Position numbers and translations under genes: made by a program
NCBI GenBank assembly: GCA_002118135.1
Contig: BDIU01000360.1
Location: 124,001-188,000 of the forward strand
Direction: 5' to 3'
Source: Trebouxia sp. TZW2008
Lineage: Eukaryota > Chlorophyta > Trebouxiophyceae > Trebouxiales > Trebouxiaceae
DNA: 64,000 nt
The notes under the pieces: generated by a model
Seen by the model: only the letters and a program-made list of their open reading frames with translations
Told to the model about the DNA's origin: nothing
Databases searched by the model: none
Part shown: positions 4,623 to 55,075 of the stretch, piece after piece
Layout of the letters: each line of letters opens with the position of its first letter
How positions within the stretch are numbered: the first letter of the stretch is position 1

Positions 4623-4670
4623 AAACGCATACTAGACGGGCTGAAGAGGCCTTCCTAGGTACGTATAGTC
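4623..4670 (+). repeat. Dispersed repeat, copy 1
   Basis: AAACGCATACTAGACGGGCTGA and following to GGTACGTA resembles blocks at 24703-24780 and 51625-51690 (AAACG..CTAG.CAGGCTCAGCAGGCC....AGGT.CGTAC). It is the most diverged of the three. Confidence 0.5.
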
Positions 4671-5005: not shown

Positions 5006-7615
5006 GGCAACTCACAACTGCTGAAGCTGCTGGATGTGCATAGCATGGGCGAACCGCCGTTTCCAGTTACAAGGCATTCTTTTCCTGACCATTCCAACAC
5101 CACTGCACCTGTTGCGTTGCCTGTAGAAAAGGACAGAGTCAGACTACAGGTGAGTTACCATGCCTCCCCAAAGCATACTGTATCGTGTTGGAACGTAACA
5201 GTCATTTTGCACTCCATGTTGCAAATGCACCTGTTTCACTGACACTGGAAAGAGAGTGAGGCAGGTTGCAGACCAGTGAGTATGCAGCCTTTTTCCAAAA
5301 AGCAAGCCAGGTCTCTGGCAGTTTAGAAGACCACATTGTTTGCACTGCCAGTGGCAAAGGACACAGACAGACTTCAGCTAATGGGCATGCTGTGACAAAC
5401 AAGCCACCTGTCATGCACTTGTAACATTGGCCGCTGCATTCCAAGTCAAATTGCTTGAGCAGCAGGAAGTCATAAGTTGAGCCTATGCACGTCTAAGTGG
5501 TCCGTTGTTTGTTGCATCTGTGCTGATTTTTTTTAAAAATGTTCAGCTCAGGTGCAGCAAACACCACATTGCTTGGTCATGCAGAACTTGGCTGATGACC
5601 TCCTTGCTCCTGATAAATCTGTGCAGTGACTTTCTGCACAACAGTAGCTTTACTCACCAAGGACAATCTTGTCCTTATACCGAGTTGTCTGTGTTGTCAG
5701 GTGTCATTGCAGTCAGAACACAGCGATTGGTTCTCAATTGTCCTTGCATCATAAACGTCCTTACGATGAGTATCCTTACAAGCAGGAGTTACTATACAGG
5801 AAGTTGAGAACCTGTTGCCGTCCTTACGATAAGTGTCCTTACAAGGAGGAGTTACTATACAGGAAGTTGAGAACCTGTTGCTCAAAATGACAATCATCAC
5901 TTCCCCTGACAGCCTGCCTGACAAGGCATGCTTAGAAGACTTTCCTCTGCACATCCATCATACATGTACACATGTACAGACAGAGTGTCAACTTTGCTTT
6001 GGGCATACACCGCACACGCGCAAACGAGTCAGCCTGATTTAGAAATCCCACTGTACTTGGAGCGCTGCTAGCAGAGAAGCACAGAGTCAGACAGCAGGTG
6101 AGCAGCCTGCTTCAAAGTGCCAATCTAAAAAGCGTTCACGCATTTCGTTTCAGAGGAAATATGCACTGATGAGCTTTCTTGATTGCCATGTGGGCCACTT
6201 CAACTAATGCTAGTCACGGTTGTTTCAGCTGCTTGAATTGAGCTCAGCGTATACAATGCACACAAGGGCGTGCTACAAGTAGCTTCTGCTTCAGCTAAAG
6301 TGCAAGTTTGCACTGCTGAAGCTGCGCTTCCATTTGCAGCACAGTACTGTGTGCATGCGTAAGCTGAGATGGTCTGCTTCAGCTAGAGCATCTCTGACTC
6401 ACAGTCTAACAGGTGTGACGTTTTTTCTGTTTAGCAATGTGCACATGATTTGCACTTGTTTCAAACTGGCTGATGAAGGCCTGGTCAATCTTGCACACAG
6501 TACGTAGAGTGGCCCCAATTGCTGGAGGCATGAAGCTCAGTGGCTGGTTCGCTGTGCTACCTTCAGGCAACACCCAGCCTTGTTGCTGTTTCATGCTTCA
6601 CATGAAGGGCATGCATGATTTGCAGCAACCATTCTAAAGTGTGATGTTTTATATTCTTGCTCACCGTGATGAGTATGCACTGCAGACAAGTGACGAGGCA
6701 GTGTGTGTCGCAGATGTTGGTATCAGCACCAGGGTACTTTCCGCTGCTCCCTTGAGTACTTCGTGTCTTTGCCAAACTAGGCAAGGTCAACCCCACCTAT
6801 TGTGCACTTTGACTGAGCGAGGAATTTGTGCATTGCAGACAAGTGGAGAGGCAGTGTATGTGGCTGATGTTGGTGTAAGCACCAGGGAGCTTTTTGCTGC
6901 GCCTGTTGAGTCATCCAGAGCCCTTACCAAACTAGGCAAGGTCAACCCTGCACCTGCCTTGAAGCTGCCAGGCATTGTGGCTTTTGTAGGTAAGCCCACT
7001 TTTCAACCTGCATCTACCATGGTATTGCTCAATTGCAATGACCTCATTTGCCATAGTAGCAATGGTGTAATAGGTTCTTGCTCTGTTCGACACATCGTGG
7101 TTCCTACAAATGAGTCTGTTGGCTTGCACACCATATGTCTCTGCAGCAATCACCTTCGATCGCAGATCTTTGATCCCACATGCTCTTATGCATGCATGAG
7201 ACCACCTCCTTCTCCAGCAACCCTTGCAGATACTCATACACCCCAAATCTGCATATTGTTCTGTATGTCTGTATCGTATGCCTCAGGCCAGATGACATTC
7301 TGAAGAATGACTCAGCAGCTTTTGCAACTCTAAGGCCTTTCACTGCAGTTCAGTCTGCGTGAAAATTTGGCTGTTTGTCTGTGCGGCTCAGGACCAGCTG
7401 TCATTCCTGAGCATAAATTGGCAGCTGTCGCATATGTACAGCACGACTGTGCCTTCCATTGTCCTCAACTGCATATGCAAATTGCGCTGTGACTCTCAGG
7501 GCCAGATGACATTCCCAAGAATGGCAACCCAGAGGTTTTTGGACAAATTCTGTTTCCCAAAGACAAGGTGGAGTATCACGGACAGCCATTGGGCTTGATC
7601 GTGGCCAAATCTCAG
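5006..7615 (+). CDS. Oxidase exons 1-3: entry into the hammerhead domain
   Basis: Exon 5006-5149 ends ...KDRVRLQ and joins exon 6839-6989, which begins TSGEAVYVADVG. Together they give the family signature LQ-(A/T)SGEAVY-DD that opens the a/b hammerhead domain. Exon 6839-6989 continues to KLPGIVAFVG and joins in phase 1 to exon 7506-7615 (DDIPKNGNPEVF, then KVEYHGQPLGLIVAKSQ), matching the family's DIPG...V-Y-GQP-G-IVA block. Each exon has a decayed duplicate nearby: 6070-6097 for the first, 6686-6800 for the second (frameshifted), 7288-7312 and 7388-7414 for the third. Confidence 0.9.
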
Positions 7616-10600
7616 GTCAGTTCTCAACTTTGCATGTTTGCTGAATCACAGGTTTGCTATTCACAGCGCCAGATCAGGCTTGCGACTGTTACCTCTAAAA
7701 TAATCTCATATGACATTGAGGTTGATTGTTATAGACTTGATCACATGCCCTGCTTTGATTCTGTACCCTTGTTGCAATGCATTCTGGGTATGCGCTATTG
7801 CATAGCTTTGCTGAAAACCAACGGCTGCCTTGAGCTTGCATCAGCACTTGCTTGCAATGATGCAGTGCCTTGGTAGTACCCAAGGGTGTCTGTCCTAATG
7901 AGGTGACTTGATGCTTCAGCACCAGTGCGCAACATGAATGCTTTGCGTAGTCTGCGCAACATCATTTAGGCTAGCATCTCTTTTGGCCAGCACACAGCTT
8001 GTAGACAGCTTCTGTCAGCTCAGGCAGATACAGATTGCTGAGTAGCATCTCAACCAACTTCGCCCTGTTGACTGTGTTGCTGCTTAAGTTCTCTGTACCT
8101 CCCTGAGCTGACAGCATGCACCTTCAACTTGTGCAATGCCCCTAACGCCGTCTCTCCCGCTTGCCTGCCCTCAAAGCATGATCTGTGCATCTCATTCAGC
8201 TGACTGCATCAGGGTAAGGTTTTGTTCATCAGTCAAGCTGATGTTTCACAGGTGGATGCAACAGGAAGCACACAGGCCGCTTGTACTGTACAGGTGCACA
8301 CAGAAAGAGGCGCAAAAGACATCGAAGTGCCGTCGCGTTCTGCTTGTTCCATGAGCGTCCAAGCAAGCGGTTGCTCATCTGTGCATCTTGTATGTTGCAG
8401 GTGGAGGCAGAGAGAGGTGCACAAGCTGTTGAAGTGGAATACATTGAGGATGCAAATCTTGGCCAACCCATCCTGAGTATAGCTGAAGCCATCAAAGCTA
8501 ACTCCTACTTTGACCCTCCCATGGATCTGGTCACAACCATTGGTGATGCCAAGAGCGCTATGAAGAAAGCTCAGTACACCATCAACAATGCAAGGTGCGT
8601 CAAAGCCAAGCTCAAGTGACTTGTGCAAAGTCAGCTATGCGCTCTGTGCAAGAACTTCCTCCCCGGACCCCGTGTCCCGCCCCTCCCCGCGCCCCCATTT
8701 CCCCTGACCCCACCCTCCATGAGAATTTCCGCCCCTCCCCCGCGCCCCCATTCCCATGCCATCCCTCCTTCCTGAGCATAGCTGAAGCCATCAAAGCCAA
8801 CTCATACTTTGACCCTCCCATAGATTTGGTCACCACCATTGGTGACGCTAAGAGCGTCATGAAGAAAGCTCAGTACACCATAACAAAATGCAAGGTAAGC
8901 CCAAACCTAGTTGAGTAACATGTGCATCAACGCTGCGCCCATCCTCTAATTTTCCAAGCCACTCAGAAAGCATTAAATAAAAACGCCGTCCAGCACCATT
9001 ATGGGAGCCTCTGTGGATAGAGGGAGCGCGGGACAACCCCACATGTCACTCCTAAACACCATGCGCACTGACGCTGCTTGTCTCCCAGTGGCCATTGGAC
9101 ATGCCATGATCTTGAAGACGTTTGTAATCAGCTCCTCACTTTGCAGCAGATTCTGAATGTTGTGCACTCATGAGCTGCTTGCCCAGTAGTGGCAGTTGAG
9201 TACATCATGGTCTGAAAGTCTGCTGTCCCTGCTTCTACATTTGCAGCAGAACACATGAGACTCTCAGACTATGGTTGCCATGCTGTACACACAGGCAGCA
9301 GCTGCAGCTCAAGGATCATCCCAGTACCAAGGAACTGTTATCCAATTTCTTGCAACACCTGAATTTATGTTAGTGAAAAGAGCACTTTTGCAGACAAGTG
9401 TTGACTTTGCTCCTCTGCGCAATCAGTCAGTCAGCTGCTCAAGCCATGGCAAATCCATCACTCCCCACCATTGTGCGCACGTGTGCTGCTTGCCTCACAG
9501 TGGCAGTTGGGCATGCCTTGGTCTGAAGGCCTTAGGTACCAAGCTTCTACATTTGCAGCAGGGCACATGACGGTTTCAGACTGTGGTCTCCATCACTCAC
9601 TCAATCAATCAATCATGGAGTCAGACTCTCCCACATGCACCGCACATTGCAGTCTGAACTGTAATTTCTCAAGCCGAAGCTCTTTTCAGCATCATTTGGC
9701 TGGCTTGGGGTTCTACGCAATAAGCTCATTCAAAAGCTTGTCATATTATCACTGATGCTGACACCCTTGATATCAAAAGCTGTGTATGCTGTGCCTCTGT
9801 GAGCCTGGTAGAGTGACAGGAGGGGCGTACTTTGATGAGCAGCAATTTAGCAAGCAGATGATAGCCTGCTGTCACCAGCGATGTGCCATAATGCTTCACC
9901 GTTTGCTGGTAGCGCTGCAAGTGTCACCAATTAGGAGGGTGCAGTCGTCCCTACCGTCGTCTTCTGTTTTAGGCACAAGCAGACAGAGAGGATGACTTTG
10001 CCCTCCTCAGATGATGGTGACTGCTCATGTATGCAGTCCCTCTTTGAGAAGAAACAGGGTGGACATTTCTTGTCAGTGTTGTACAGCAACCTTCACTAGA
10101 CCGCTCTTCCCAGCAATTGCAGTAACTGCATTGCACCTCACTGTTTGCTGATACTGGTGCAAGCGTCACCATTTGAGGAGGACACGGCACTTCCTTCTGC
10201 GCTGGGGCGTTCAAGGCGGCAGAAGAAGACAACGCGATGTTCGGCGGCGTGACGTGTCTAAAAATCGCAGCAGATCGTATGGACTGGATCAACCGCAAAA
10301 TCGATCTCTATGTTAGCTTCGTCTCGAAGCCAAGTGAAAGCTCACGGTGGTGACAATGCGTGGATGTTGCCGTTCGATCAGATGCTTTTAGACGTATCGA
10401 AATTCTGCTCACCAGCGGAATGCATGCCACAGCGCGCCCTGATCAGAGCCCCGTCAGAAGATTTGGATGACACCCTTTTCGAAAAAAATAACATGGTGTC
10501 GAGGGCGGGACTGTCGCTGGCTTTGGATCCTAGACAATTTATTTTCGTCAAGTTTTCAAACATGCTTTCATTCTGGTTTCCCTTCGAGCAAGATGGCCCA

Positions 10601-13600
10601 CTGCGAAGAATTGCCGTTTATGCTGACGCATGGAACACGGACAGAGCTTTCGACTGCATCTTTCGTCCTCCAATAAGGAGAGATGGCAGTAAGCTGGTAT
10701 GTTACAATGGAGGAACCATGCGAACTTTTCGCCTAGTCAAAAAAAGCTCTAAGGTGATGGCACAGAGAACGTCTAGAGGCTATCAGTATAGTGTTGAGCC
10801 GTCTCCGTTTACCTTCGAGAGAATGGCAGATGTGTTTTCAGCTTATGTTCAATCTGCTGGTCTTTTGCAGAATTCTCCCTGATGTCTTGTTCACTGCGAT
10901 CAAGCCAGATTTGGCATGTTTGGGTTGAAAATGAGCCAACAACGTGGCCACTGACAGCAATTGCATCTTGCTCTGCTGATGGACATGCAGTAGGGGTTTT
11001 GACTACAGTGCAGAGGCCTTGCAGACAGTCATGTTTCAGTGGCAACTCTGACCTTACCCACATCCTTGCTTGGCAACAAAGCTGAGGAGACTGTGAAGCA
11101 CATGACAGAAGGCACATCAAAAATGCCAACACCGGACTAGCACGTATTGCAGTGGGCATTTCATGCAAGTGTAAGTGCTGCCCTGGTCTCCTTGTGATGT
11201 GGTTCCAGCTGCCACAGTGTGTTTGACGCACTCAGCACGTTAGGGTCCAGCTTGTGCTGCTGCAAGAGTTGACAAGATAAGACATTAGCTGCAATGCTAC
11301 CATCTAGTGATGCGGCTCTGTTCTGTCACAACAAGATTTGCTGCAGCACAGACGCAACAGTGTCTGACTTGGCTGGGGCATATCTGTAAGCAATCACTCC
11401 CTCTCATCTGAACAGGCATGGTGACAGAACACTGCAACGCAAGGTTGTTTAGTGGTTCAAGCCCTCTGCTTCAATTTGTGCTGAACGCCAGTTTCTCGCT
11501 TAAGCAAGTGTGAACTGATACCCTAGCGCATGTGGCGCATGCAGGCTCCTGCTACAGTGGAGTTGACATGCTGAGCAGTCTTCTCACAGCAGCATTGCAG
11601 CTTTTGTCTAGCCTTGATTAATTTTGCTGCAGCATAAGCTTCAAGACGTCTGTTTATTTGATGCATTTGTGCATGCAATGCTCCCCCTATCATCTCAACA
11701 GCATCTTGGCACAACGCACTGTGAAGCAAGCTTGCCAACTTGGTCAATTCCTATGCAGTGATAGATCCATTGTTGCATGTTCTTTAACAATGCTCACCAT
11801 TGGACTTGAATCAATAAACATAAGGGACCAGATTTCAAGTCTGTTGCGTTTACCAATGTCATCAAGCAAGCTTCTTAACAAAAAGATGAGAAATAGAGCG
11901 GTCGGCAAATATTACAGATAGATTGCTCGAGAAACGTCGACGATTGTATTTGTGTTTTTCTGCCCTTTTTTCTCAAAGATTGATGCGCCTTTGTTTTTGA
12001 TAGGCAAATTCAAACGCGTGGGCCAGATTAGCGTTTCTTGCTCGTGTAAGTATCAGCTGCTGCCGTGATATCTTGTCTCAGCTCGTTTATGTGACCTTAT
12101 GTTGCAGTGGGTTTGACATGCTCAGCACTCTTGTAACCACAGCATGTCAAACCCTGCGGTTACAAGAGAGCTGAGCATGTCAAACCCACTGCAGCAGGAT
12201 AGCACATGAATGAGATGCCAAGCTGTTTCATTTCATGTACCGGCAAAGGTGTCGTGCATCCTGCCTTGCTCCTGTAGATGCATCAGAACTTGCACTGGCA
12301 GGCGTATTGTGAGCCCAGCACTCACTGGAGTGCCAGCAATAAGTCAGCCAGCTGATCGTGAACATGAGGAAGCTTGACAGATGTCAGCTGTGACCAACTT
12401 GAGGTGTAGGCTGTAGCCAATGGTCAGTTGGTTGGTTAGTCAGTCAGTCAGCTGATTGTGTAGTTCAGGAAGCTGTAGAGATGTCAGCTGTCACTGACCT
12501 GCGATGTAGGCTTTACTTGTCGCGGAATATGCTCACTAAGCTACAGTGACATAGTATATGTAACACTGCTTGCCATTGCCATTGCCTGTCTGACAGATTT
12601 TGTTTCAATCAGATATGGTAGGAGTTGAACAACAACAGACCCAAACCCTGATAGATTATCTTCACCTTGTTGCTCCTGGTCCAACTTTGCCTCCTGTACA
12701 CTGTCTGTCTCCTCACATTGCTGCATAAGCATGTAGCTCGCTGAAAGGAACAGAACCACAAGGGGTGTCATATGAATCCGGACTGTGATTGCTTGAGAGT
12801 TTGGACCACAGATCACGCTAACAAGGCAGGTTGCACTGGAGTGCAAAACAGTCACAACACAAGTTTCAGCGTCTAGCAATTCGACTGCTGCAGCTACAGC
12901 AGAATTGGCTGGGCTGAAAGAGTATGAGTGGCCTTTGGAACATCAGCTGTCAGATACCATGTTAGCATCACATCTTGGACCCCGCTAGCATGGTCACGTG
13001 GCCCACAATGACCTTAAACAGCGCATCCTGAAGCGATTCATGGTGCACAAGCTGCATGTTCTGCTGGAAGGCAGCCTATGCAGGACTGTGTTACAGTCAC
13101 ATCACATTTTTTGACTCGTTATTTCTGCTGCCAAAGCTGCAACAGAATGGCAGGGTTGAGAGTTGTGAGTGGCTGTCGGCACATCAGTTGCAGGCTGCCG
13201 CCTTAGTATCACATGTCTTGAACTTCAAGAATGTTAGGCTGGCTCAACATGACCTTTAGTGCGCCCATGGGCATCTTGAGTTGCAATGATAACTTAGCAA
13301 ATCATGTTGCAATAAGCTGCATGTTATGCTGGAAGGCAGGCTGCTCTGGTGTGCACAACGGTCACATTGCAGTTTTCAACTCCCTCAGTTGTATTGCAAC
13401 TGCTGCAACAGAACTGGCAGGCTCAAAAACTATGTGTGGCTGCCAGCTGTTGTAGGCTGCCATATAGCATCACTTCTTGGAGTTCAAGCATATTTACCCT
13501 GGCTCACTGTGACCTTTGGCTCACCCGAGGGCATTATGAGTTGCCTGGTAGATCATGTTGCAACAAGCTGCATGTTCTGCTGGGCAGGCAGCCTATGCTG

Positions 13601-16600
13601 GAGTGTATTGTGGCCACATTGCATTTGCCAAGTCAGCCAATTCTGCTGCTGTAAATGCAACAGATTTGGCATGTTCACTCTGGCTCATTGTGACCTTCAG
13701 CACACCCTTGGGCATCTTGAGTTTGCAGATTGCGACCAGCTGCATATGTTGCTGTGAAGGCAGCCTACACAGGACTGTGCAGCAGTCGCATCACCTTTCT
13801 GGTTCATCTGATTCTGCTGCCATCACTGCCACAGAATTGGCAGAGCCAAGAAGTGTGTGTGGCTGTCAGCACATCAGAGGTAAGGTGCCCTCTTAGCATC
13901 ATGTTTTGAAGTCTAAGCATGATCTCAAAAGCTGACCTTGACATTGAGCGCACCCATGGGCGTCTTGAGTTGCAGTAATACCTTCGGTATGCCATGCTGC
14001 AACAAGCTGGGTGTTCTGCTGGGAAGGCAGCATTATGCGGGAGAGTAGGGCGTTTACGTTACATTCCTGAATTCTGCAAGTCCTGCTACTGCGACTGTCA
14101 CAGAACTATGTTGGCCAGCGTATCAGCCATCAAGTGCCATCCTAGCGTCACGTGTTGGCATCCAAGATGTTCACTCTGGCTCACGGTGACCTCTGCGGCA
14201 TCCTAATTTCAGTGATTATTCAGCATGTCATGTTGCAGCAAGATGCATGCTCTGCTGGGAAGGCAGCCCATGCTGAGTGTGCAACGGTCACATCACATAG
14301 CTTGTTCTTACCAGCTATGGCAGCAGAGTTGGTGAGAACAAGCTATGTGATGTGACCGCTGCAGCTATGGCAGCAACAGAAGTGGCAGGGAGGAGGCTAT
14401 GTGTGCCTGCCAGCGCGACGGCCATCAGGCGCTGTCTTGGCATCATGCCTTGGAATTTAACGAAATCATGTGGCCCACATTCACATTCAATGCAATCATA
14501 GGCATCCTGAGATTGCAATGAGAATTGCAGCGTTGGTGCAACAAGCTGTAGCTGTTCCCTGTTGCTGGGAAGGCAGCCTATGCACAGAGTGTTGAGCGGT
14601 ACATCACATGGACTGGCCCATCCGCTTCTGCTGTCATGATTGCCGCAGAATCAGCAGAGCCAAGCATTGTGTGTGGCTGTTCGCACATCAATTGCAGGCG
14701 CCCTCTTGGCATCATGTCTGAAGCACAAGCATATTTATGCTGGCACATTCACGGGCGTCATGAGATGCGACAGTAATTTAGCAAATTGTATTGCAACAAG
14801 CTGCATGACCTGCCGGGAAGGCAGACTGCGCTGGTCTGCACAGCGGTCACATTGCAGCTTGCAGCTCAGCCAGTTGTGCTGCAACTGCTGCAGCAGACTG
14901 GCTGGGCTGGAAAGTGTGGCTATGTGTGCATCAGTTGTCAGGTGCCATCATCACTTGGAGTCAATGAATGTCCATCTTGGATCAAATGGACCTCTGGGTC
15001 ACCCACAGGCATTTGGAACTGCAGTGATAACCCAGCGTATCAAGTTGCACCAAGCTGCATGTTCCGCTGGAAAGGCAGACTGCGCTGGTGTTCACAACGG
15101 TCACATTGCAGTTTGCAGACCGCTCAGTTGTGCTGCAACTGCTGCAGCAGACTGGCTGGGCTGAAAACTATGTGTGGCTATGAGTGCACCAGTTGTGTCA
15201 GGTGCCATCTCATCGTCACTTAGAGCCAATCATTGGCAATCATCGTGCATGATCACTCTGGCTCACCTTGACCTTCGGTGCACCCACGGGCATCTCAATT
15301 GCAGTGATCGTGCCGCGCATCATTTTGCGACAAGCTGCATGTTCTACTGCAGTGAACGTGCTGCACATCATGTTGCGACAAGCTGCATGTTCTACTGGAG
15401 AGGCAGCTATGGACGAATCTACAGCAGTCGCATCACATGCCTTACTTCTGCCAGGTCTACTGTCATAGCTGCTTTACAGTTGGCAGGGGGCAGGACTGTT
15501 GCGCTGGCAGGCACTGCATTAGGCGCTGTCTTGGCATCATTTATTGGAATTCATCGTCATCACGTGCCCCACATTGACCTTCAACACAACCGTGGGCAGC
15601 CTGAAATGCAATGAGAATCGCAGCATTTCTTGGTGCAACACACTGCACGTTTTGCTGGAAAGGCAGCCTATGCAGAGTGTGCAGTGGTTGCATCACATAA
15701 ATTGGCCCAATGGTTCTGCTGCCGTAGTTGCCACAGAATTGGCAGAGCCAAGCAATGTGTGTGGCTGCCTGTGCATCAGCAGGCGCCCTCTTAGCAGCAT
15801 GTTCTGGAGTCTCAACATGTTCCCTGTGGCTCATTGTGACTGTCCTTGCACCCATGAGCACCTCATTTGCATGTTACACTCGACAACCCATGTTGTGTGC
15901 GCACGCGCGCGCAAGCTGCTAATCAGAGGCAGTGCGTGTAATGTTTGCAAGATGCACAGATCATTTTCCTTCTGCTGATGTATCTGTTGGATTGTTGTTG
16001 CAGGTACAAGCTACCTTCCCAGCAGCATTTCTACATGGAGCCTCAAGGAGCGGTCGTACTGCCTGATGAGGCCGGCACCTTCACCGTGACTTCCTCCACT
16101 CAGTGCCTGGATGCTGTCCAGAAGGCGGTTGCTGAAACCCTGGGCATACCCTGGCACAAGATCACAGCAGGTTGGTATCTAGTTCCCTATGCTCAAGCCT
16201 GCTTGTTTTTGTTCATTGTGTACCGACGCACAAGAAATGCCGCCTTTGCCAAACAATTGGTTCCATCATGTCCAAACATGTTTGAGGCAATGCCTTTGCT
16301 GATTACTGCAACCTCCAGCCAGACGGAGCTCTGCTTCTGTGTATGTGAGGCAGAGCATTTTTGGATGGTCATTGTTGACTGCCTGAAATAACTGCAATGA
16401 AGGTCTTGCGCCAGAGCGTTGCCGTTACTGAGCGCTGGTGCATCGCCTTGTTCTGCAGTCCTTTCAGGCAAGCAACAATTGCCAAACAGCATGCACTCTT
16501 CTCAACATAGCAGGGACAAACCCTTGACCTCTGCTTCAACTTGTCATGTTTGGCACCATTTCTGATACTCAATGTCTAAACAGCACGAACCATGATCAGA

Positions 16601-42300: not shown

Positions 42301-42643
42301 TGACGCCGTATTGACAGTTGACATAGTGGCATTCTCCATTCAACAACAATCAAAGTGGGAACCAAGCACTGTATTCTGGCTGTAATGGTATTTCTGAGCA
42401 TTCCCAAAACAATGTGTTGACAACTTTGTTGACAAATGCAGTCCTACATCCAGAAATCACAGTATGTGGGGTCATGCACTGGATTGAGATGGCACACCCA
42501 CCTGCAATGGAGCAGCGCTTAGTGGTGACTGTGGAGGCTGCTGAAGCATCACTGGACGCTATGGCCATGCCCACATCAGCCGCTGCTATTGCTGCCAAAT
42601 CGTTGATGCCATCACCACAGTACATGCAGGTCTTGTTCAGACC
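39346..42643 (-). CDS. ATPase exons 15-18: GDGIND and C-terminal membrane block
   Basis: Exon 42425-42643 encodes GLNKTCMYCGDGINDLAAIA and AADVGMAIASSDAS, the magnesium-binding hinge. It then reads on through VISGCRTAFVNK, like the V-REGR-AL- segment of P5 pumps; its donor is not certain. Exon 41312-41395 gives YMVMYQLLLSLCCNTAFYLD. Exon 40532-40756 gives INTLDFLAISLGIVAALRPA and FVLVTEHCVLACVIVFW. The last exon, 39346-39696, gives NPVTTTFWLVACCQVMTPAF and two more hydrophobic stretches, ending ...RLSHSA at the stop. Confidence 0.88.
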
Positions 42644-45600: not shown

Positions 45601-48600
45601 TTTGGGTCATGACTTGGGCTGATGATGACTCAGGCACACGCTCAGACAGACTAGCAGGACCAAACTCTGACTCGGCTTGGATGATGACGACTGTACTGGT
45701 GGGACCTAGCATGCCCACCTGCCTGGCTGCTGCTATGGCAGTGTAGTGGTAATCACCCGTCACCATCATTGTCCTCATTGCACCCCTGTATCAAACACAG
45801 TGACCATGATCAAGTCATCAATCATTCATGACACATCAACTTGAGTACTCACCAGTGGTCATCATTACTTTCATCGCACCCCTGCATCAATGTAGTCACG
45901 ACATTCATTTCATCAAGCGCTAGTGACCTGTCAAGCTGGGTAGTCACCAGTGACCATCATTATCCTCATGGCACCCCTGCATCAAACACACGTTCAGACA
46001 ATTAGCAGGGCCAAAATGTGACTCAGCTTGCATGATGACAACTTTACTGCTCGGCCCTAGCATACCCACCTGCCTGGCGGTTGCTATGGCGGTATTGGTA
46101 GTCACCAGTGACCATCATTGTTCTCATCGCACCCCTGCATCAGGCACGCCCTCAAAGGATTAGCAGGCCTCAATTTGTAATGGGTTTGAATGATGACAAC
46201 ATACAAACGTCCAGCCCTAGCATGCCCACCTACCTAGACACTGCTATGGCAGTGTGATGGTAGTGACCAGTGACCATCATTGTTCTCATTACAGCCCTGC
46301 TATACACAAGGTAGCCACGATCAAGTTATCAGTCCTTCAAGACTAGGTGTTGGAGGTCTGAATTCTCCACAGTTGGCACTCACCTGGCTTGACGGCCCAC
46401 ACCCTCTGAGGCCATAATTATTGACCAAAGCTACTGAGTTGCCACAGCTACTGGTGAACAAAGCAGTTGAAAGACTGCATGCATGAGGTGTGACATTGGC
46501 CTCTTGCTTTGTTAAGCACACCAATCAAGCTGAAAAGGGTTTGTAGACATACGCACATGCTTGTGCATCTGCCGCAGCAGCAAAACGTTCCTTAAAGCAT
46601 GCTAACTTGCCCTTCTTTGGTCCAGACCAGCTTACTCGTTCTGGAGATGCTCAATTGTGGCTTTGGAGTCAGGTCTCAGCTGATTGCTCATCACAGCAAA
46701 GCCCAGCAGATCCAAGCCACCTGTGTGCTGCTCCAAGTCTTGCAGTGACATTGCTGCCAAATCTAGCCTGGCCACGTCATGCAGCCTTCCACATGCTAGG
46801 CTCAAGAGGCGGTAGCTCTGACTTGCATAGCTGTCCACCACCTATGCAATCAGAGAACACTCAGCACTTGATGTTGGGCAGACAAAGACACACCTATGTA
46901 CAGCATTTCACAAGCCAAGCTCAAAAGACGGTAGCGTTGAGCTGAACAGCTGTTGACTGCCTATGCAGGTCAAACCACACTCAGCAGTTGATGTTGGGCA
47001 GATGAAGACTCAGCTATATTGCAGCACTTCACATGCCACGATCAAAGGAAGGTGGCGTGGAGATGCACAGCTGTTTATGGTCAGTGCAGGTCAAAGCGTA
47101 TTGTAGATTTGATGCCAGGCAGATAGAAAGGCAAGGCAAGGCAAGGCAAGGCAAGGCAAGGCAGGGCAGGGCAGGGCAGGGCAAGGCAGGGCAGGGCAGG
47201 GCAGGGCAGGGCAGGGCAAGGCAAAGCAAGGCAAGGCAATGATTGCAAAGAGAACACAAAGGGGAGCCTGTAGGAAGCAGACCTTCATGTAGTCATCAGG
47301 CAGGGCATTAGGGCTGATCAGACAACTGATTGCTCCTGGCCCTCCCTTCACAAACAGCAGGCCTGAGCCGTCTTGAGATCCTGTCTCTATTGCCACAACA
47401 GCAGACCTATATATACAGAAGCATTTAAACAAGCTGCATGTTGATCCTGTGACACATAGTCAATGAACTCAATCAAGCAGTTGATCAATGGATTAATCAG
47501 GCGCTTGATTGCCTGTAAATCTCTCAAATAGCAGACCTGAGCCGTCCTGACACCCTGTCTCTACTGCCACAACAGCAGACCTACATAAGCAGAAGCATTT
47601 CAACACAAGTCACCACACATACAGAAACATGTCAGCACAGACGCTTAGCAACTCCAGAGTACACACCGTTCTCACTGCAATAAACTCAGACGCACACATC
47701 TAGGAGCATGTCAAGACAAATGCTGTTCACAGTGATCTAAGTGAGCAGATTAGCTTCACATCTTTCTCTATGCAGGCTAACACATGCTGGCTGCCTGTAT
47801 GTTGATGCTACTGGGTGCTGTTGACACACTCTCCAGATGCATTGACATGTGACATGCTACTGGTTGTTTGAGTAGCACTTCAGCCGTAGGAGAGTTGCGC
47901 ACCTGAGCAAGGCCGAGTCAAACTCGAAGCGCCTCACTATCCGCAATTTGCAGATCTTGTAAGAGTGTCTGCTGCTGCGCACTGGCAGTGTGACCAGATC
48001 TCTTTCCTACACAGGCAATTACACAACGTGGTCAATCCAAGTCAAGTCAAGTCAAGTCAAGTCAAGTCAAGCAAAAAGCCCCACAAATCAAAGCTTGTTA
48101 GGGTGTGCATTGCACTACAACAACAGCAATGTGTTAGTTGCACAAGAGAAGATGTGTCAGGGCGTAACATGCTGCTTGTCCAGTGCACCAAACACCAGAA
48201 AGAAAATTGTGCATATCCTGAGTCCTAAGCATCCACATACCAAGCTAGTGGTGACGTTCTACAGGACCAAACGCTGCCATCTGCACAATCATATGGAGGC
48301 ATGAGCTGTGCCAGAAAATGTGCCTCCACTGCTTGGTATACTTGCATCTCTGCTGCATCCCCAACCACCTTGCTCTTGCTCACTCTGGTTAAAGCATTGC
48401 AGACAGCTGCAGCCTGTTTGAGCCTGTTTGGCTTTGTACAGCTGAGACTTGACAGTAAAAAGCAATGCATGACAAGGCAGGATCCTTACAACAAAGTGTG
48501 CCTCTACTGCTTGGTATATCTGCATCTCTGCTGCATCCCCAACCACCTTGCTCTTGCTCACTCTGGTCAAAGCATTACAGACAGCAGCCGCCTGTTTGAG

Positions 48601-51600
48601 CCTGTTAGGCCATCTTCGTGCGTGATTTTGCAGCTGTGCAAAGGCACCGTCCACGAATGGGACCAGCCCATGCAAGTCAGGCTGCAAGCACTGAGCACTT
48701 GTTGAGAAACAAGAATCAGGCTACAGCACACACAGATGTCGCACGCGAGTAAGGTCCTCAAGTTGATGTACGATCAAGTTGAAGCATTGCAGACGGCCAC
48801 CGCCTTGCATGGCTTGATAGCTGTGCAAAGGCGCCATCCACAAATGGCACCAGCTCATGCAATACAGGCTGCAAGCACACAACGTAGGCTGCAAAAGCAA
48901 AGTTTTTTGCGAGACCCTACGCAAAGCGTGCATGCTCAAAATGTGCATTGCGTCATGCATCTTCATGTACTGTGCAAGCAGAAGCGTTCAAATGCGAAGC
49001 AGCAATGGACCAGAAGTCTGCAGACAACAACCAGCAAAGGGAATGTGCAAGTCAGGGCGACACTTAGGATATGCTGGAGCAGCACAGCAGATACATTCAA
49101 GAAGACTAGGGAGATCATGCTACAACAAGACTGGTCAAGGTAAGGAAGTAAAAGAAGAACAGAGCCACACCATGTTGCCAGTCAGCGTCCCAGTCTTGTC
49201 AAAGCACACGACCTCCACAGTGGCAATAGTTTTCAACTTCTCAGGAACCAGCACATGAATGTGCTGAGCCCTGAGCTGAACCACAGCATACCCCACTGCA
49301 AAGACTACGACTGTAGGCGCAGCTGTTGGGCATGCTGCGATGAAAACGCCAAGCGCGTGGTTGAGGGTTTGCTGTGGCGATTCTGAGTGCTGGCGGGCGC
49401 TGACCATGTATGGGATGAAGAAGAAGAGCTGCAGGACCAGGGCAAAGAAGCAGAACTTGAACAGGTCCTGCAGCAGAATGTGACAATCTTTAGAACACGG
49501 CAAAGACTACCACTGTAGGCACTGCAATTGTTGGAAACGCTGCTACAAACACGCCAAGTACGTGCTTGAGGGTTTGTTGTGGCGGCTTTGAGTGACGGTG
49601 GGCACTGACCATGTATAGGATGAAGAAGAAGAGCTGAAAGATCAGGGCAAAGAAGCAGAACTTGAACAGATCCTGCAGCAGAAGGCAAGACTCGTATGTA
49701 CACTGCCAAAATTGTCACTGTAGATGTAGCAGCTGAGACAGCTGAAATGAAAATGCCCAGCATGTGGTTCAATGTCTGCAGTGTTGGCAGCAAATTTTGT
49801 TGCATGAGCACTGCGATGCACCATCCAAAAGTTGACCTTGTCATTGATAAGCATTGATGAAGCTTTGCTGCTTGCATGCAACCTTGAATGTGGCGCTATT
49901 GAGCAAACGACAGCAATGTAGTGAGCACAATTTACATGGCATGTGGGCATGCCTATGGAGAAGGCTCAGGAAACTGTTAGCCTTTTGCCAGCTACAATGA
50001 TTGAAATGTATACAGTATCTGAGCACATTCCTTGACATTTCGTGACTTCTGAGCTGTGAGTAGGGCTGTATCTGCAGCATTCCTGGCATCAGGAATGGTA
50101 CGATCAGACAGTGTCAGGTAGAGAAGAAGCAGCACACCTTCATGCACAGGTCAATGCAAGGTTCAACCTCCGTCCAGAGGCTGTGCAATGCAACACTGTG
50201 TCATGAATGTGCGGCAGCAGAAGGTTCTGAATACTGTCAGCCAAACAATGTTTGAAGCCCAATTAGATGAAGAGGCAATTCATGAAGGGGTCTATGCGGT
50301 GGCGAGTCATCTGCATGGGACTCATGACCTGCCTCAGCAGACTTGCACAAACACTGTGCTGCCAGTCAACACCAGATAGAAAGAGGCTGAAGACATTTGC
50401 AACGACCATGGAGTCAGGAAACAACAGACAACGGAGATAGATCTTAGGCAGCTGGAGGAGAAGCAGCAGACCTTCATGAAGGGGTCTACGCGATGGCGAG
50501 CCATCTGCATGGGACTCATGACTTGTCTCAGCAGGCGCCCCATGGTGGTCCTCAGACCTGTCCTTGCCACCATGACCAGCACTTCTTCTTCCGGGTCTTC
50601 TTCACTCCACACCTGCAGTACAGTCAAGCACCACTCTTATAACAGTCCACAGATACGCTGTTTGTGCTGAAGTGCTTTGGGACTCCCTACAGCGAACAGC
50701 TGCAGTGAATAACATGCAGCAAACGCATGTGTAAGCTCATGTGCGTCACACATGCACAGGGACACCACCTTGAGAAGAGGGTCTGCGGCCCATGTGCGAA
50801 GTGATACACATGCTAAGGGCTGTTGTCACTGTTGTAGCCGTTGCTACAGTGAGGTTTGCCTCACCTGTTGTACAAAAGTGCCTGCATGAATGGTACAGGC
50901 GTGGTGGGTATCAGGGTGGTACTGCCCAGCCCTGCCTCTGGTTGGGCCAACGCAGGATTTGCGCACTTGGGCTGCCTGCATTGCAGCACTCAGGGTGGTT
51001 CATGTTTTTGTTCAATAGTCTGAGGTTAATCAAATATGCAAGTAGCATTGCATGTAACAATTTTTCACATGGTCAGGGAGGAACTGCCCATCTCTGCCTC
51101 TGGTAGGCCCATAGCAGGACTTGCGCACTTGAGTAGCCTGCACTATAGCATCAAACATGACTCACAGTAGAAGCAACCATGTGTCATTTAACATCATGAG
51201 CTGTGATTTGCCGCTGAATCAAAGGGTGCATCATGGCATATCCATAGCATCATACACAGCTGAATGCATCTGCCCAACAACTTGAGAACACCATGATGCA
51301 AGGCAAACAATCAAAAGAGGTCACTACATGATGATGCAAGACAGCGCGACTGAAGCATGGGCCTGACCTCGCCTGATAGCACTGACTCTTCCAGGAGACA
51401 GCAGCCCCTCAACAGCACCATGTCACAGGTAGCTCTCCCTTGCACCAGCACAATCACGTCACCTGGCACCAACCGATGGGATGACACTGCCCTACGGTGT
51501 GCACAGTTTGCTTGTCAGCAGACAGTGACTAGCATTGTTGTTTCAGACTTGATAGGCATGAAAGCTCATTCATTCATTCATTCATTCATTCATTCATTCA

Positions 51601-54600
51601 TTCATTCATTCATTCATTAATTATAAACGTGGGCTAGGCAGGCTCAGCAGGCCCAACTAGGTGCGTACAGATGCAATCAACTGTCTCCAAGAAGCTTATT
51701 GAATGGTACCATACAGCTGTGTGTCTTTCGTGGCGCCAATTTTGCTGCAAGATGTGGTGTGACAGCAGGGATGCAGCTGTCGCCATGAGACACCATGATC
51801 TATTTTGTGACAAGTGCTTTCAGGCCGCAGTCCGCAATGACATATAAAGGCAAACAAATGCAAGAGGATCAGCACTGCCACTCAAGCAAATGTAATGGGA
51901 CATGCAGACAGCCATCTGCGAAGGCAGGAGTGCCGATAAGCCAGGTTGACCACAGTGAAGATTAGAACACAACAAAATACGCCCCATGCTACATGCAAAC
52001 AGTCACCTCTGAAGCCCTGGCATGTAGATCGACCAGCACGTCTGCAACTAGACTCAGAAGGAAACAAAGCAGAGAGCTGACATGCAGAAAGCCACCTCCA
52101 AGGAGCTGACAGTCTAGAAATGCAGCACTGCCACAGCTAGCACCAAGATGCCATGGAACAAAGGGCTGAGGAACAGACAGTCTCCCTAAAGACCTTGCAG
52201 TGTCTGTTAACATTTGAACTGCAGAGACAACAAAACCAAGGGCTGACCTGACTACGCCGCCTTGCACAATGGGTATCAAGTGACGCTGTGACACTGCTGT
52301 GTAAAGCTCCAATCGCTTCTTGTAGAGTTCATAGTTCCCGCTCAAGACTGCGCCAGCTGATATAGAATACAGGATGATGGCATAGATGTACCGTAGCTTG
52401 TAACAGAGGCACCCCAATTCTATGAACTGCATAAAAGCATCCACCATGTACACACGGAAGTCCAAGTGTTAGGTGTGGCTATTTGGGTTCCGTGCTCTTT
52501 GAATTGAACTTGTTGCTCATATGCCAGCAGTCAAGCATTGTGATTCTTTCAACTTGCTCAGAGTACAGGACGATGGCGTAGAGTTACTGCAGCTTGTTAC
52601 AGAGGTATCCCTACTGTATGTGCTGCATAACGATATCATCCGTTTGCATCCGCCAGCTGCTAGGGATGCGTGGTCTAAGGACACATGTGCATGTTGATTG
52701 TGTGACAATGTGATGGGCATGTGTAACAACAAATGACTTTTGAGTGATAAGCTGACCAAGCATGATGCACTGTTGATTGTACCTCAGCAGTCCGTGCAGT
52801 CATTAACATCAAGTCCTGACCCACATGTGCAAATGCCCACTATACAGGTCACTTACGACCTGGACACAATTTTACCAGTGATGTGCAGCCTATTGTCAGC
52901 AGACCTTGACACATAGACCTTTGGTTGAGGATATTGTACCTGGACCACATACATAGGACCGCTCAGCGCAGTCAGAACCATCTTCAAATAGCTTGGACGC
53001 CCAACAAACATATCATTGTAGCCATACAGCTGCGCCCTGTCCCTTCTGCTCCAATCAGATGCTAAGTTGAACCTGTCCCAACTTGCTCCTGCATCATAAC
53101 AGCGAATGCTCAGCTACTGCAACGCTTCATGTACAGAAGAGATACAAACATAGAGTATTGTGTGCTTGTCAGGCCTAACAAACATGTCATTAGATCCAGA
53201 CAGCTGTGCCCTGTCCCTTCTACTCCAATCAGGTGCTGAATTGAACCTGTCCCAAGTTGCTGCTGCATCACTACAGCATCTGCTCAGGTGATGCAATGAT
53301 TCACGTACAGAGTGTCTTCTGCATATCATGGCACTTCAGGGTCACAAGTCTTGACAGACTACATTGCAGCGCTTCCCTATAACATTGTGATTCCCTAGGT
53401 GCTTGACATGCAGGAAAGTCACATGGATGCATTTGACATACATGTCTCGCTCAGGTCCAGTGCACCATACAGTGCTATCACATATCCAGGTTAGTTTGCG
53501 AGTCTACAGTACAGTTGCAGTCTGCAATCACAGTCAAGCTAGTCTGACATTGCATGATGCACCTCAACTTTATGTTATGCATGCATCTTCAAGACAGTCA
53601 TTGAATTGGAAGACACAAGCCAAACCTGCGCTGATCTGCTGCAAAGCTTGCAGTGCTGCTCTAAGTTGCTATGGCAGGTTGCATGGCTTGTCAGCATCAG
53701 ACATAAAGGCTCAACATGTTCATTACAAGACATAAGCCCAAAGCCAACCTGTGCTAATCTGCTGCAAAGCCTGCAGTGCTGCCCTGATTTGCTATGGCAG
53801 GTTGCGTGGCATGTCAGCAACAGGAAGAAAGGTCAAGCATGTTACTGCAAAATGCAAGCCCACCGGTGCTGATCTGCTGCAATGCTTGCAGTGCTGCTCT
53901 GATTTGCTGTGGCAAGTTGCTGGGCATGTCAGCAATTGGCAGGAATGTGTCTGCCTGGTTGTCATATAGGTAGGTCACTAGCAGCACCTGCACGCTCCGC
54001 TGCATGAGCTGCTTTGGATTCAACCAGGCCCCTCTCTGCACAAGACATGCTCCTATGAACATAGACTGAGTCCCCTTGAAGGCACACGGGAAACTCCAAG
54101 AACTCTCTAGAGCACACGACGTCTCACCCCACATGCAATGCACATGATGTGCAACGATTGCTGTTTGATGCAACTTGACAAGATCTGCCCAATGTGAATT
54201 ATACCATGTACCATGTGCCAATTTCAATGAGTTTGAACAATGTAGGGCTGCTGTGCATTGAATGGCAGAGTTGAGGTCTGATGAGCCAGCATTCAGCTTG
54301 CCCAGCCAAGTAAGGCATGCTGTAGCTTGGAAGCAACAGGCAGCATGGAGATTGTCTGATGGATATCTTAGGGCTGCTTCAAAGACATTGACTCACAATC
54401 AGCACGTTGTCTGTGCGTCAAATCAACTGCAAATAGAGCTTTGCATGCCTCATGTGCAGAATAAGCAGATGCTTCAGACTGGAGCCAGTGCCTGTGAAGT
54501 GACAAGTTGCTCAGCAATACTCTCACCTTTTGTGTGGCATGGAGAGAGCTGGCCGGCAGATGCTCTTGCACCCGCACCAACACGTGCTGCCCGTTGACCA

Positions 54601-55075
54601 GCTGCACAAGCATGACGCACTAGTGTCAAATGGCTTGCATACCTGACAAATCATAGCAAACAAGACATGCAAATGGCCAGGGCAGGTCTCCTAGAACATT
54701 CACTTCATGCTTCCAACATCTTGCTGAGGATTGTAAGCTTCAAACTGCACAAGCTTTGTTTGCAGCAATCAGGGTCCAGCAGGCATGGGGTGCAACATTG
54801 AACAAGGGATTAGCAGCTTTGTGCATGAGGCAACATGGCAAGCATGAAAAAGTGACTAATCCGCATCATGCGCCAGTGAATTCACTTCAAATGGTGCAGA
54901 CCTCTGCACGGACAAAATCTGCCTCGCTCAAAGGGCATGCTTTCAAAGTCCAGCGCCTTAGCTCTGGCCAGATGCGGCACATGGGTGCCCATACTCCTGC
55001 AGTAAGTATCACTGCCGCTGTATGTGCTGCTTGCGCCCATCTTGGCACTCTATACCCAGCAAAACCCCTTACAGC
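39346..55075 (-). CDS. P5-type (ATP13A-like) P-type ATPase, 18 exons, start exon not certain
   Basis: Minus-strand exons in order: 54902-55075, 54527-54601, 53864-53987, 52940-53088, 52248-52426, 51368-51491, 50865-50975, 50472-50612, 49171-49467, 48490-48681, 47903-47955, 47283-47406, 46636-46841, 44606-45785, 42425-42643, 41312-41395, 40532-40756, 39346-39696. Phases agree at all junctions and give about 1335 codons; only the 42425 donor is uncertain. The protein shows a P5B-like N-terminal membrane hairpin, actuator domain, DKTGT phosphorylation site, nucleotide-binding domain, VTGD, GDGIND and a C-terminal membrane block. P5B pumps sit in endo-lysosomal or vacuolar membranes, and animal members export polyamines; the cargo here is not shown. 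The initiating exon may lie at 55598-55747. Confidence 0.9.
39760..40215 (-). repeat. Four tandem decayed copies of the start of the ATPase last exon
   Basis: The acceptor and first 70 bases of exon 39346-39696 (minus: CTTGCAG|AACCCTGTGACAAC) recur upstream in the transcript at roughly 39765-39835, 39885-39955, 40010-40080 and 40135-40210, with a period near 125 bases. Each keeps the region encoding TTTFWLVACC-V but with base changes and disrupted acceptors (e.g. ACCGGACTCTGCAATG). Confidence 0.85.
40815..41065 (-). repeat. Tandem copies of the start of ATPase exon 17
   Basis: The block encoding Q|INTLDFLAISLG (true exon ends at 40756) recurs at about 40825-40850, 40915-40935, 40985-41015 and 41020-41055. 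Minus-strand readings include DLQTNILDFLVTSFAIAGLQ and ISILDFLAISLGNI. Some have an intact CTGCAG acceptor and could be competing 3' splice sites. Confidence 0.75.
42730..43375 (-). repeat. Four tandem copies of the ATPase GDGIND exon
   Basis: Relative to exon 42425-42643, copies lie at about 42735-42810, 42910-42990, 43085-43177 and 43275-43360, each with the acceptor-side sequence TGCTGTGCAGGGTCTGAAC or a variant. The 43085-43177 copy is open on the minus strand and still reads CMYCGDGINDLAAIAAADVV. The others have lost GDGxND through substitutions or indels. Extra fragments of only the acceptor region occur between them. Confidence 0.85.
43566..44605 (-). repeat. Seven tandem copies of the 3' end of ATPase exon 14 with donor
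   Basis: Downstream of the real donor at 44606, the segment encoding MQSHQKGQVMELLSTKGLHQ and ending CCG|GTCAGT is repeated. Copies begin near 44451, 44302, 44154, 44011, 43869, 43695 and 43566. The first four are spaced about 149 bases and are nearly identical, while the distal ones are more degraded. Each of the near copies contains a GTCAGT donor candidate. Confidence 0.88.
44606..45785 (-). CDS. ATPase exon 14: VTGD motif, long Gln/His-rich insertion and hinge region
   Basis: The 1180-base exon starts GAMRTMMVTGDYHYTAIAAA followed by RQVGMLG, the P5 IRTVMVTGDN-LTA-SVA motif. It returns to family sequence only about 280 codons later with VQCCVTGQAFSHLL and VAVFARMQSHQKGQVMELLS. The intervening part (about 44820-45660) is rich in Gln, His, Ser and Gly with imperfect SGH-Q and HPQ repeats, plus DDQDHHSGDQDHH near its start. 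P5B members have a short variable loop here. The insertion keeps frame and contains no stop, so it is probably translated. Confidence 0.85.
45845..46310 (-). repeat. Four decayed copies of the 5' end of ATPase exon 14
   Basis: The acceptor region and MRTMMVTGDYHY coding segment recur (minus strand) at about 45850-45890, 45945-45985, 46015-46140 and 46190-46310. The third is longest and includes a copy of the AARQVGMLG and VIIQAES part, but with a frameshift after MRTMMVTGDY. None has been kept open. Confidence 0.8.
46636..49467 (-). CDS. ATPase exons 9-13: DKTGT site and nucleotide-binding domain
   Basis: Exon 49171-49467 carries DLFKFCFFALVLQLFFFIPY, then ACPTAAPTVVVFAVGYAVVQ, then VEVVCFDKTGTLTGNM; Asp of DKTGT is the phosphorylated residue. 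Exon 48490-48681 carries AVCNALTRVSKSKVVGDAAE, the (C)--L-----VGD--E signature. Exon 47903-47955 has RRFEFDSALLR, joining SAVVAIETG and LFVKGGPGAIS in exon 47283-47406. Exon 46636-46841 has YASQSYRLLSLACGRL and LDLLGFAVMSNQLRPDS. The order and spacing follow P5 pumps. The family's KGAPE-type motif reads KGGPG here, and PPxLP in the fourth membrane helix reads PTAAP. Confidence 0.9.
47129..47240. repeat. GGCAA/GGCAG pentanucleotide microsatellite
   Basis: About 22 units of GGCAA and GGCAG in blocks inside the ATPase intron between exons 12 and 13. It creates false open frames on both strands (KARQGKARQ and ALPCPALPC). Confidence 0.95.
48036..48071. repeat. GTCAA pentanucleotide microsatellite
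   Basis: Seven or so GTCAA units in the ATPase intron between exons 10 and 11. Confidence 0.9.
48301..48430 (-). pseudogene. Duplicate of ATPase nucleotide-binding exon 10, donor lost
   Basis: On the minus strand this repeats most of exon 48490-48681, encoding NRLKQAAAVCNALTRVSKSK and GDAAEMQVYQAVEAHF, with very few changes. The GTT|GTAAGG donor of the true exon has become CTGGCACAG, so it cannot splice as the original does. A more decayed 5' copy lies at about 48750-48865. Confidence 0.85.
49500..49810 (-). pseudogene. Two duplicates of the start of ATPase exon 9 (DKTGT exon)
   Basis: The first copy (about 49500-49680, minus) repeats the acceptor CTGCTGCAG and the membrane-helix coding part (FFALIFQLFFFILYMVSAHR) with small changes. 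The second (49690-49795) keeps only the LNHMLGIFISAVSAATSTVT part. Neither contains the DKTGT segment. Confidence 0.8.
50285..50345 (-). pseudogene. Duplicate of the 3' half of ATPase exon 8
   Basis: Minus strand repeats LLRQVMSPMQM-RHR-DPFM with the donor AAG|GTCTGC changed to AATTGC. Spacing from the true exon is about 130 bases. Confidence 0.75.
50472..52426 (-). CDS. ATPase exons 5-8: membrane segments and actuator domain
   Basis: Exon 52248-52426 encodes a hydrophobic pair (CLCYKLRYIYAIILYSISAG) and a cytosolic helix. Exon 51368-51491 gives VSSHRLVPGDVIVLVQGRAT and CCLLEESVLSGE, the P5 LVPGD and TGE motifs with Thr replaced by Ser. Exon 50865-50975 gives THHACTIHAGTFVQQ, the H-LF-GT-V-Q block. 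Exon 50472-50612 gives VLVMVARTGLRTTMGRLLRQ and ends RHRVDPFMK. In the actuator domain the (T/S)GE loop drives dephosphorylation of the pump; Gly and Glu are kept. Confidence 0.87.
50995..51150 (-). pseudogene. Decayed copy of ATPase exon 7 region
   Basis: The forward sequence at about 51075-51145 (GGAACTGCCCATCTCTGCCT... CTTGCGCACTTGAGTAGCCTGCA) parallels exon 50865-50975 and its acceptor, with several indels. No open frame is kept. Confidence 0.65.
51567..51620. repeat. CATT tetranucleotide microsatellite
   Basis: About 13 units of CATT, upstream (on minus) of ATPase exon 6 and adjacent to dispersed repeat copy 3. Confidence 0.95.
51625..51692 (+). repeat. Dispersed repeat, copy 3
   Basis: AAACGTGGGCTAGGCAGGCT... 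then GGTGCGTACAGATGCAATCA and ACTGTCTCCAA, directly after a (CATT)n microsatellite. The shared 3' half (GCAATCA-CTG-CTCCAA) extends the similarity to copy 2 beyond the core. Confidence 0.65.
52940..55075 (-). CDS. ATPase exons 1-4: N-terminal region
   Basis: Exon 54902-55075 encodes AVRGFAGYRVPRWAQAAHTA...TLKACPLSEADFVRAE. This matches the P5B pattern of a GYR start, a re-entrant hydrophobic stretch, then a Trp/Cys-containing segment ending (L)-EAD-V. Exon 54527-54601 (LVNGQHVLVRVQEHLPASSL) and exon 53864-53987 (VLLVTYLYDNQADTFLPIAD) correspond to the variable region with a Y-(Y/W)D turn. Exon 52940-53088 encodes WSRRDRAQLYGYNDMFVGRP and LTALSGPMYVVQ, the family's R---YG-N-I-V....L-P-YVFQ block leading into the next membrane segments. 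Confidence 0.85.
53150..53300 (-). pseudogene. Duplicate of ATPase exon 4
   Basis: Minus strand encodes AAATWDRFNSAPDWSRRDRA followed by QLSGSNDMFVRPDKH, clearly homologous to exon 52940-53088. The YG-N motif is changed to SGSN and the frame then diverges. It lacks the PMYVVQ end and its donor. Confidence 0.8.
53605..53830 (-). repeat. Two tandem copies of the 3' end of ATPase exon 3
   Basis: Blocks at 53610-53700 and 53735-53825 repeat the PSNLPQQIRAALQALQQIS coding end of exon 53864-53987. The period is about 120 bases. Both lack a good GT at the donor position. Confidence 0.75.

Follow-up and report, generated by a model that had tools for sequence, protein, structure and literature searches.

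The locus and its genes

The window, meaning the whole stretch of DNA of the lichen alga Trebouxia analysed here (64,000 nucleotides, C338:124001-188000), belongs to an assembly of 68.5 Mb in 527 contigs. Two genes were mapped in it:

1..36113, plus strand: in-window part of a molybdenum hydroxylase gene (spliced alignment; Pfam domains of the relative P0001)
39349..55075, minus strand: P5-like P-type ATPase gene, 19 exons (spliced alignment; domains of the relative P0125)

Exons were mapped by spliced alignment, using a program of our own, to proteins of other Trebouxia and relatives, and the exon ends at 32917, 34500, 36113, 39349, 44606-45785 and 55075 were set by hand from the open frame. 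All 45 mapped exons are open; the sole stop is the terminal one, in the last exon of the first gene.

This first gene is a member of the aldehyde-oxidase/xanthine-dehydrogenase family (the oxidase) and runs on the plus strand from window position -12399 to 36113. An earlier sequence-only reading had recognised it with a start at 5006; the gene in fact begins further left, outside the window, with its first 10 exons up to 12.4 kb beyond the left end and 16 of its 26 mapped exons inside. The 26 exons are spread over 48,513 bases, with introns of 75 to 7,409 bases (median 1,157); mean introns given for five other green algae in PMC5966456 are 230-462 bases. The best protein relative, at 82% identity over 41% of a chimeric query, comes from Trebouxia sp. 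C0010, and the Pfam domains of the Trebouxia relative P0001 back the family assignment. The public C0010 protein P0001 has its end (residue 1190) within the second molybdopterin-binding domain. Three further exons were mapped beyond that point in the gene studied here, so the P0001 annotation may be cut short.

The ATPase gene reads from 55075 to 39349 on the minus strand and covers 15,727 bases. Its best protein relatives are from Trebouxia C0004, A1-2, C0006 and C0005 (45-54%), and the relative P0125 carries P5-ATPase and E1-E2_ATPase domains (Pfam). The family has many diverged copies in Trebouxia. P5 ATPases have a PPALP-like motif at a site where this protein and its Trebouxia relatives have PTAAPT or PTGAPT (window 49171-49467). 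Exon 44606-45785 (1,180 bases) encodes a long insert rich in Q, H and S, which lies between the phosphorylation-domain motifs; the relatives have a different low-complexity stretch at that position. Between the two genes, positions 37016-38374 form a single open frame of 452 residues with a leucine-rich look and no Pfam match. The only N run in the window is 17 N at 38506-38522.

Partial copies of exons beside their source

Each exon was compared with its own flanks (3 kb on either side, exons masked). Four controls were set against this: the same DNA reverse-complemented, 20 versions of it shuffled in 2-base blocks, 20 stretches from the surroundings of the other gene, and at most 8 stretches lying far off in the same gene. 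For 30 of the 45 exons in the two window genes, a same-strand copy within 3 kb outscores every control; the remaining 15 do not beat all of them. A score of at least 150 is reached in the own flanks of 26 of 45 exons, compared with 4 for the reverse complement, 0 for the best of 20 shuffles, 7 for the best of 20 other-gene stretches and 2 for the best distant stretch of the same gene. BLAST, run as a plus-strand-only search over 4 kb on either side, gives 79 copies at 29 of 45 exons, and when the window is compared with itself, 160 matches are direct and 8 inverted.

Most exons are flanked by copies of their own edges. The sequence-only reading had put this at nearly every exon, which is too strong; about two thirds is the proportion found, and its count by eye (25 of 33) is close to the 29 of 45 obtained by BLAST. 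Its description of the copies as pieces of the adjoining exon in the same orientation holds up against the reverse-complement and other-gene controls, and an equal level of matches to introns of other genes, which would have spoken against it, was not seen, own flanks exceeding the controls. The acceptor or donor is normally included, as had been said, with 64 of 79 copies extending more than 3 bases beyond an edge. Copy identities run from 68.6 to 100%, in keeping with the proposed range of decay and with decay that continues, and up to nine copies occur at one exon.

The analysis was extended to two more genes, an XDH on contig C52 (17 exons) and a paralogue of the oxidase on contig C62 (8 exons), whose exons were hand-picked from spliced alignments where these looked reliable. 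These genes have 36 copies at 14 of their 25 exons (9 in XDH, 5 in the paralogue). The copies in the window include the following:

6676..6798, plus strand: acceptor-edge copy of exon 6839-6989 (80.3%, 30-base spacer)
8767..8926, plus strand: donor-edge copy of exon 8401-8594 (84.5%, 139-base spacer)
18740..18943, plus strand: two donor-edge copies of exon 18570-18709 (18740-18794, 18880-18943)
24837..24945, plus strand: acceptor-edge copy of exon 25038-25441, with 37 intron bases (87.2%)
31436..31502, plus strand: decayed part-copy of exon 31632-31749, upstream (79.1%)
32872..33738, plus strand: 111-base tandem array from the donor edge of exon 32704-32917
35170..35308, plus strand: acceptor-edge copy of the last oxidase exon, 35361-36113 (83.5%, 30-base spacer)
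39629..40206, minus strand: 125-base array from the acceptor edge of ATPase exon 39349-39696
40843..40975, minus strand: acceptor-edge copy of exon 40532-40756 (80.6%)
42731..43419, minus strand: array of acceptor-edge copies of exon 42502-42643; the copies' common spacer is absent at the real exon
43562..44557, minus strand: 149-base array and outliers from the donor edge of exon 44606-45785
45845..46343, minus strand: acceptor-edge copies of exon 44606-45785
47522..47605, minus strand: acceptor-edge copy of exon 47283-47406 (86.9%)
48297..48432, minus strand: donor-edge copy of exon 48490-48681, donor GT lost (88.2%)
48819..48878, minus strand: acceptor-edge copy of exon 48490-48681 (88.3%)
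50279..50340, minus strand: copy of the final 62 bases of exon 50472-50612 that stops at the exon's edge (91.9%)
51073..51150, minus strand: acceptor-edge copy of exon 50865-50975 (80.8%)
53173..53311, minus strand: acceptor-edge copy of exon 52940-53088, with 49 intron bases (82.7%)
53616..53833, minus strand: donor-edge copies of exon 53864-54035, contiguous 124-base tandem unit

The edge rule and the reading frame

The position of a copy follows the edge that it carries. Among the 115 copies of the four genes, on three contigs, all 53 acceptor-carrying copies lie upstream of the exon and all 37 donor-carrying copies lie downstream. Ninety of the 115 extend beyond one edge by more than 3 bases and 25 beyond neither; none spans both, copies that overlap other mapped exons by more than 30% having been dropped beforehand. 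If units of the observed lengths were placed at random, with uniform placement and equal visibility assumed, 12% of edge-touching events would span a whole exon, which amounts to 6.9 of 56 expected, and the probability of finding none would be 7e-4. Inside mapped exons, tandem arrays have periods of 33, 39, 21, 21 and 15 bases, all five divisible by 3. The edge rule and these periods together are what splicing and the reading frame would allow through.

Decay of the copies

Mismatches between exon and copy amount to 11.7, 12.9 and 25.4% at codon positions 1, 2 and 3. A mutation bias at third positions was considered and rejected, since the frequency of change there is about doubled for all bases. 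Within the exon part of the copies, 56 indels shift the frame and 9 keep it, and 16 changes create stops. The differences in amino acids were assigned using reference proteins, over 681 codons of nearest pairs (the pairs of 4 of 37 exons were unaligned): the first reference agrees with the real exon at 89, with the copy at 11 and with neither at 34, with 4 stops besides, and the second reference gives 66, 15 and 63, respectively. At 157 of 543 positions, exon and copy agree with each other yet differ from the reference; since they have the species' own changes in common, the copies mostly postdate the split from C0010 and C0004. Within one array, the intron and exon parts of sibling copies diverge alike (0.762 and 0.745). 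Judged by their frameshifts, stops and copy-side amino-acid changes, the exon-edge copies appear to be dead.

The 89 to 11 tally also rules out the idea that the copies are pieces of another strain's functional gene, which would have explained both the third-position excess and the unrelated introns. An assembly artefact, for example two strains' sequences set side by side, is a thought that a genome in 527 contigs invites, but it is scarcely credible here, given the spread of identities from 68.6 to 100%, the nine copies at a single exon, the same edge rule in four genes, and differences that sit on the copy rather than on a second functional version.

Another reading takes the copies for present or former functional alternative exon ends, or for splicing decoys. 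The third-position excess would suit it, as would the 17 of 28 nearest spaced copies that have neither frameshift nor stop and the splice dinucleotides retained in 76 of 92 covering copies, where about 61 are expected, although this last count is inflated by the requirement that matches run past the splice site. The reading is nevertheless very improbable: the copies carry just one edge, their indels are predominantly frameshifting (19 versus 1 in one set, 56 versus 9 overall), the amino-acid changes sit on the copy, and the copies are absent from the relatives' proteins. Read-through isoforms would favour nearest offsets in multiples of three, of which a tally over the four genes gives no clear excess. 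Tandem exon duplication can give mutually exclusive exons, and the Trebouxia copies resemble these in lying beside the source exon in the same orientation; they differ in being partial and dead, a whole intact second exon being found in 0 of 115 cases.

Duplication beyond exons

Contrary to the sequence-only reading, duplication in these genes is not confined to exons. When the DNA was cut into 150-base pieces, a local direct copy was found for 58% of exon-free intron pieces (n=313), 48% of exon pieces (n=50) and 25% of pieces outside genes (n=166), with 24, 2 and 2%, respectively, in the reverse-complement control. Intron pieces are thus duplicated at least as often as exons, which rules out exon-specific duplication as the sole process. 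Local direct repeats make up 49% of intron bases in the oxidase and 40% in the ATPase, compared with 13% of 26 kb outside. Recognisable exon-edge copies account for only 8 and 33% of intron bases, respectively, and so do not by themselves explain the huge introns, contrary to what had been proposed. The youngest intronic pairs are approximately contiguous (gaps of -6, 0 and 17 bases at 99.2, 95.2 and 95.7% identity), whereas most exon-edge pairs are spaced. Two large arrays lie wholly within introns:

13032..15822, plus strand: exon-free intronic direct-repeat array, private to the locus
25904..30200, plus strand: exon-free intronic direct-repeat array, private to the locus

Neither array has copies elsewhere among the best genome-search candidates scored, and positions 20000-22000 have one 90-base match elsewhere among such candidates. 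The arrays tested being private to the locus and the spacers not matching one another, the absence of a shared transposon or introner is borne out.

One dispersed repeat of about 180 bases is present in the window as an inverted pair (34070-34229 and 17029-17188). The best 40 of 1,223 candidates for it are at 85-90% on many contigs and both strands, and it has the look of a short transposon-like family.

A search of 241 kb for isolated pairs (one partner each, identity at least 75%) found 80, whose offsets peak at 150-175 bases, with 68 of 80 at 75-250; 79 of the 80 lie within 1 kb, with a median offset of 167 bases, exon-edge pairs included. In twelve stretches of other contigs, picked by contig number and not at random, direct matches within 3 kb number 117 and inverted ones 5. 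Direct matches outnumber inverted ones in nine of the stretches, two have no matches and one has 1 direct and 2 inverted; the median offset among 52 pairs is 171 bases. The four genes on three contigs and the 12 further stretches bear out a genomic rather than a gene-specific cause. Longer copies tend to have shorter spacers (r -0.44, n=45) and offsets spread less than in permutations (p 0.001), both being expected if step length is the underlying quantity.

A proposed cause: short direct duplication under selection

The account favoured here, at a probability of roughly 60%, is that short direct duplications occur frequently across the genome and that selection filters them, sparing events that touch one exon edge. 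A stretch of roughly 75-250 bases would be copied beside itself, typically about 165 bases along, in introns, intergenic DNA and exon edges alike, and selection would sort the outcomes. Purely intronic events would be free and build up into arrays. An event with one end in an exon and the other in the flanking intron would be tolerated because the intact exon still splices, and would leave a dead acceptor-edge copy upstream or a dead donor-edge copy downstream. Repeats of a whole exon would be removed, and so would exon lengthening that is not a multiple of three bases. The copy would then decay while the real exon is conserved, and since duplications would often catch one exon edge, most exons would come to adjoin decaying copies of their own edges.

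Several parts of this account are observed directly: the direct orientation, the nearness, the step length, the edge rule and the lack of whole-exon copies, together with the multiples of three inside exons, the decay on the copy side, and the recurrence in other genes and stretches. Selection as the filter is inferred, sequence alone being no proof of it. Nucleosome-sized replication fragments measure about 165 bases, and either faulty processing of such fragments or repair of staggered breaks would fit the length and may be the molecular cause.

Spacers and codon positions

A tandem origin implies that the spacer between exon and copy should resemble the far flank of the copy. In 28 nearest spaced pairs this resemblance has a median z of 0.01, with 2 pairs below p 0.05. 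Local alignment across the four genes detects a weak residual similarity (median z 0.57, n=44; reverse complement 0.01; p 0.008; z above 2 in 5 pairs). Tandem duplication with neutral decay was simulated for 1,500 events on the donor side, of which 871 were detected, assuming uniform ages, 0.12 indels per substitution and an exon omega of 0.1. At 84-93% identity, 24% of the simulated pairs are spaced, the median spacer z is 5.6 and the third-position ratio is 1.47. The observed values are 12 of 13 nearest pairs spaced at 84% identity or more (own count) and ratios of 2.11 in the 28 spaced pairs and 1.96 in the other 42 copies. The simplest form of the account, neutral decay of tandem units as modelled, thus fails on the unrelated spacers, the spaced fraction and the third-position excess.

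Synonymous divergence between exon and copy is about twice the neutral-decay prediction, and pairs of copies likewise differ more at third positions (ratio 1.56). Sibling copies in the array at 42.7-43.4 kb have spacers that are alike (0.76), and that of the real exon is unmatched (0.50). A common inserted element was rejected as the source of the spacers, since no spacer matches another; a few match nearby intron DNA, and two match L014 inversely.

The same simulation bears on detection bias, the idea that tandem duplication is random and that exon copies merely stay visible longer through their conserved partner. Intron pieces are indeed as often duplicated, exon pairs are more alike than intron pairs (identity 0.814 versus 0.767), and copies decay on their own side, all of which speaks for this idea. 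Since its simulation misses the spacers, the spaced fraction and the codon-position pattern, it is disfavoured, and decidedly unlikely.

A possible, if somewhat unlikely, account is that copying aimed at exon edges is separate from tandem duplication in introns, or that exon-edge copies are protected from decay. If aimed, an edge piece of 30-160 bases with a few intron bases would be inserted 20-200 bases away in the adjoining intron, with unrelated DNA between. The unrelated spacers and the third-position excess beyond the simulation argue for this, as do the ending of similarity a median of 10 bases into the intron and the crowding of isolated spaced pairs at exons: 27 are exonic and 3 touch an exon, whereas 55.5 kb of intron has 9, several of them near exon copies. 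The offsets argue the other way, being tighter than copy length and equal to the general step length, and so do the weak residual spacer similarity and the contiguous tandem units that make up 5 of 32 isolated exon pairs. We know of no mechanism for copying directed at exon edges. It is doubtful that, besides ordinary tandem duplication, a second, exon-edge-focused process with a nucleosome-like step of about 165 bases builds introns from their own exons genome-wide by putting acceptor pieces upstream and donor pieces downstream with unrelated DNA between. With the spacers and codon pattern, which do not fit simple decay, weighed against the offset, which is tighter than copy length and spacer would independently give, tandem duplication is kept as the main process, with an exon-edge-directed or decay-protected process as the rival.

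Relation to known systems

In the potato RdRp gene, a tandem genomic duplication crosses an intron-exon boundary (PMC4974935, reported as a single case). That was one event, which made a new intron through a cryptic donor; in Trebouxia, where exon structure was mapped in this one species, tens of events appear to enlarge existing introns and to leave the mapped exons unchanged. In the Rogers model of intron gain (reviewed in PMC3443670), AGGT segments are tandemly duplicated. The model and the Trebouxia copies both involve a short direct duplication within a gene, made harmless by splicing. In the model, however, duplication of an exonic AGGT creates a new intron, whereas in Trebouxia an existing edge is copied inside what appear to be old introns. 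Ninety of the 115 Trebouxia copies cross or supply a splice site, as segments in intron gain do.

Short tandem and near-tandem duplications in rice have been attributed to patch repair of double-strand breaks (Vaughn and Bennetzen 2014, as summarised in PMC7407515). The likeness to Trebouxia lies in insertions of 10-1000 bases that are tandem, partly tandem or derived from within 200 bases; the rice summary states no exon-edge rule, contribution to intron size or peak near 165 bases. Introners and other intron-making transposons (PMC9860276) likewise change introns on a large scale; they are dispersed families, unlike the Trebouxia arrays tested, which are private to the locus, with spacers that match no other spacer.

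The novelty claimed by the sequence-only reading is therefore anticipated in part, by the single boundary case in potato and the local duplications in rice as these sources present them. In the literature covered, mostly outside subscription journals, no description was found of general intron growth by exon-edge duplication, nor of such growth across a whole genome under an edge rule and with a fixed step. The main text of the paper on the chromosome-level Trebouxia 'A48' genome contains neither 'exon' nor 'tandem', and 'intron' once, in a reference.

Implications

Decayed exon edges within introns can be mistaken for exons, which is a warning for annotation. The finding bears on the way in which introns lengthen without transposons. 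For every exon-edge copy the source, the side and the age class are known, and a conserved partner is there against which the copy runs as a neutral clock. Comparison of sister Trebouxia strains could yield a measured rate of intron growth, test how much splicing tolerates when two near-identical acceptors or donors lie 165 bases apart, and show if the step length is set by chromatin or by replication.
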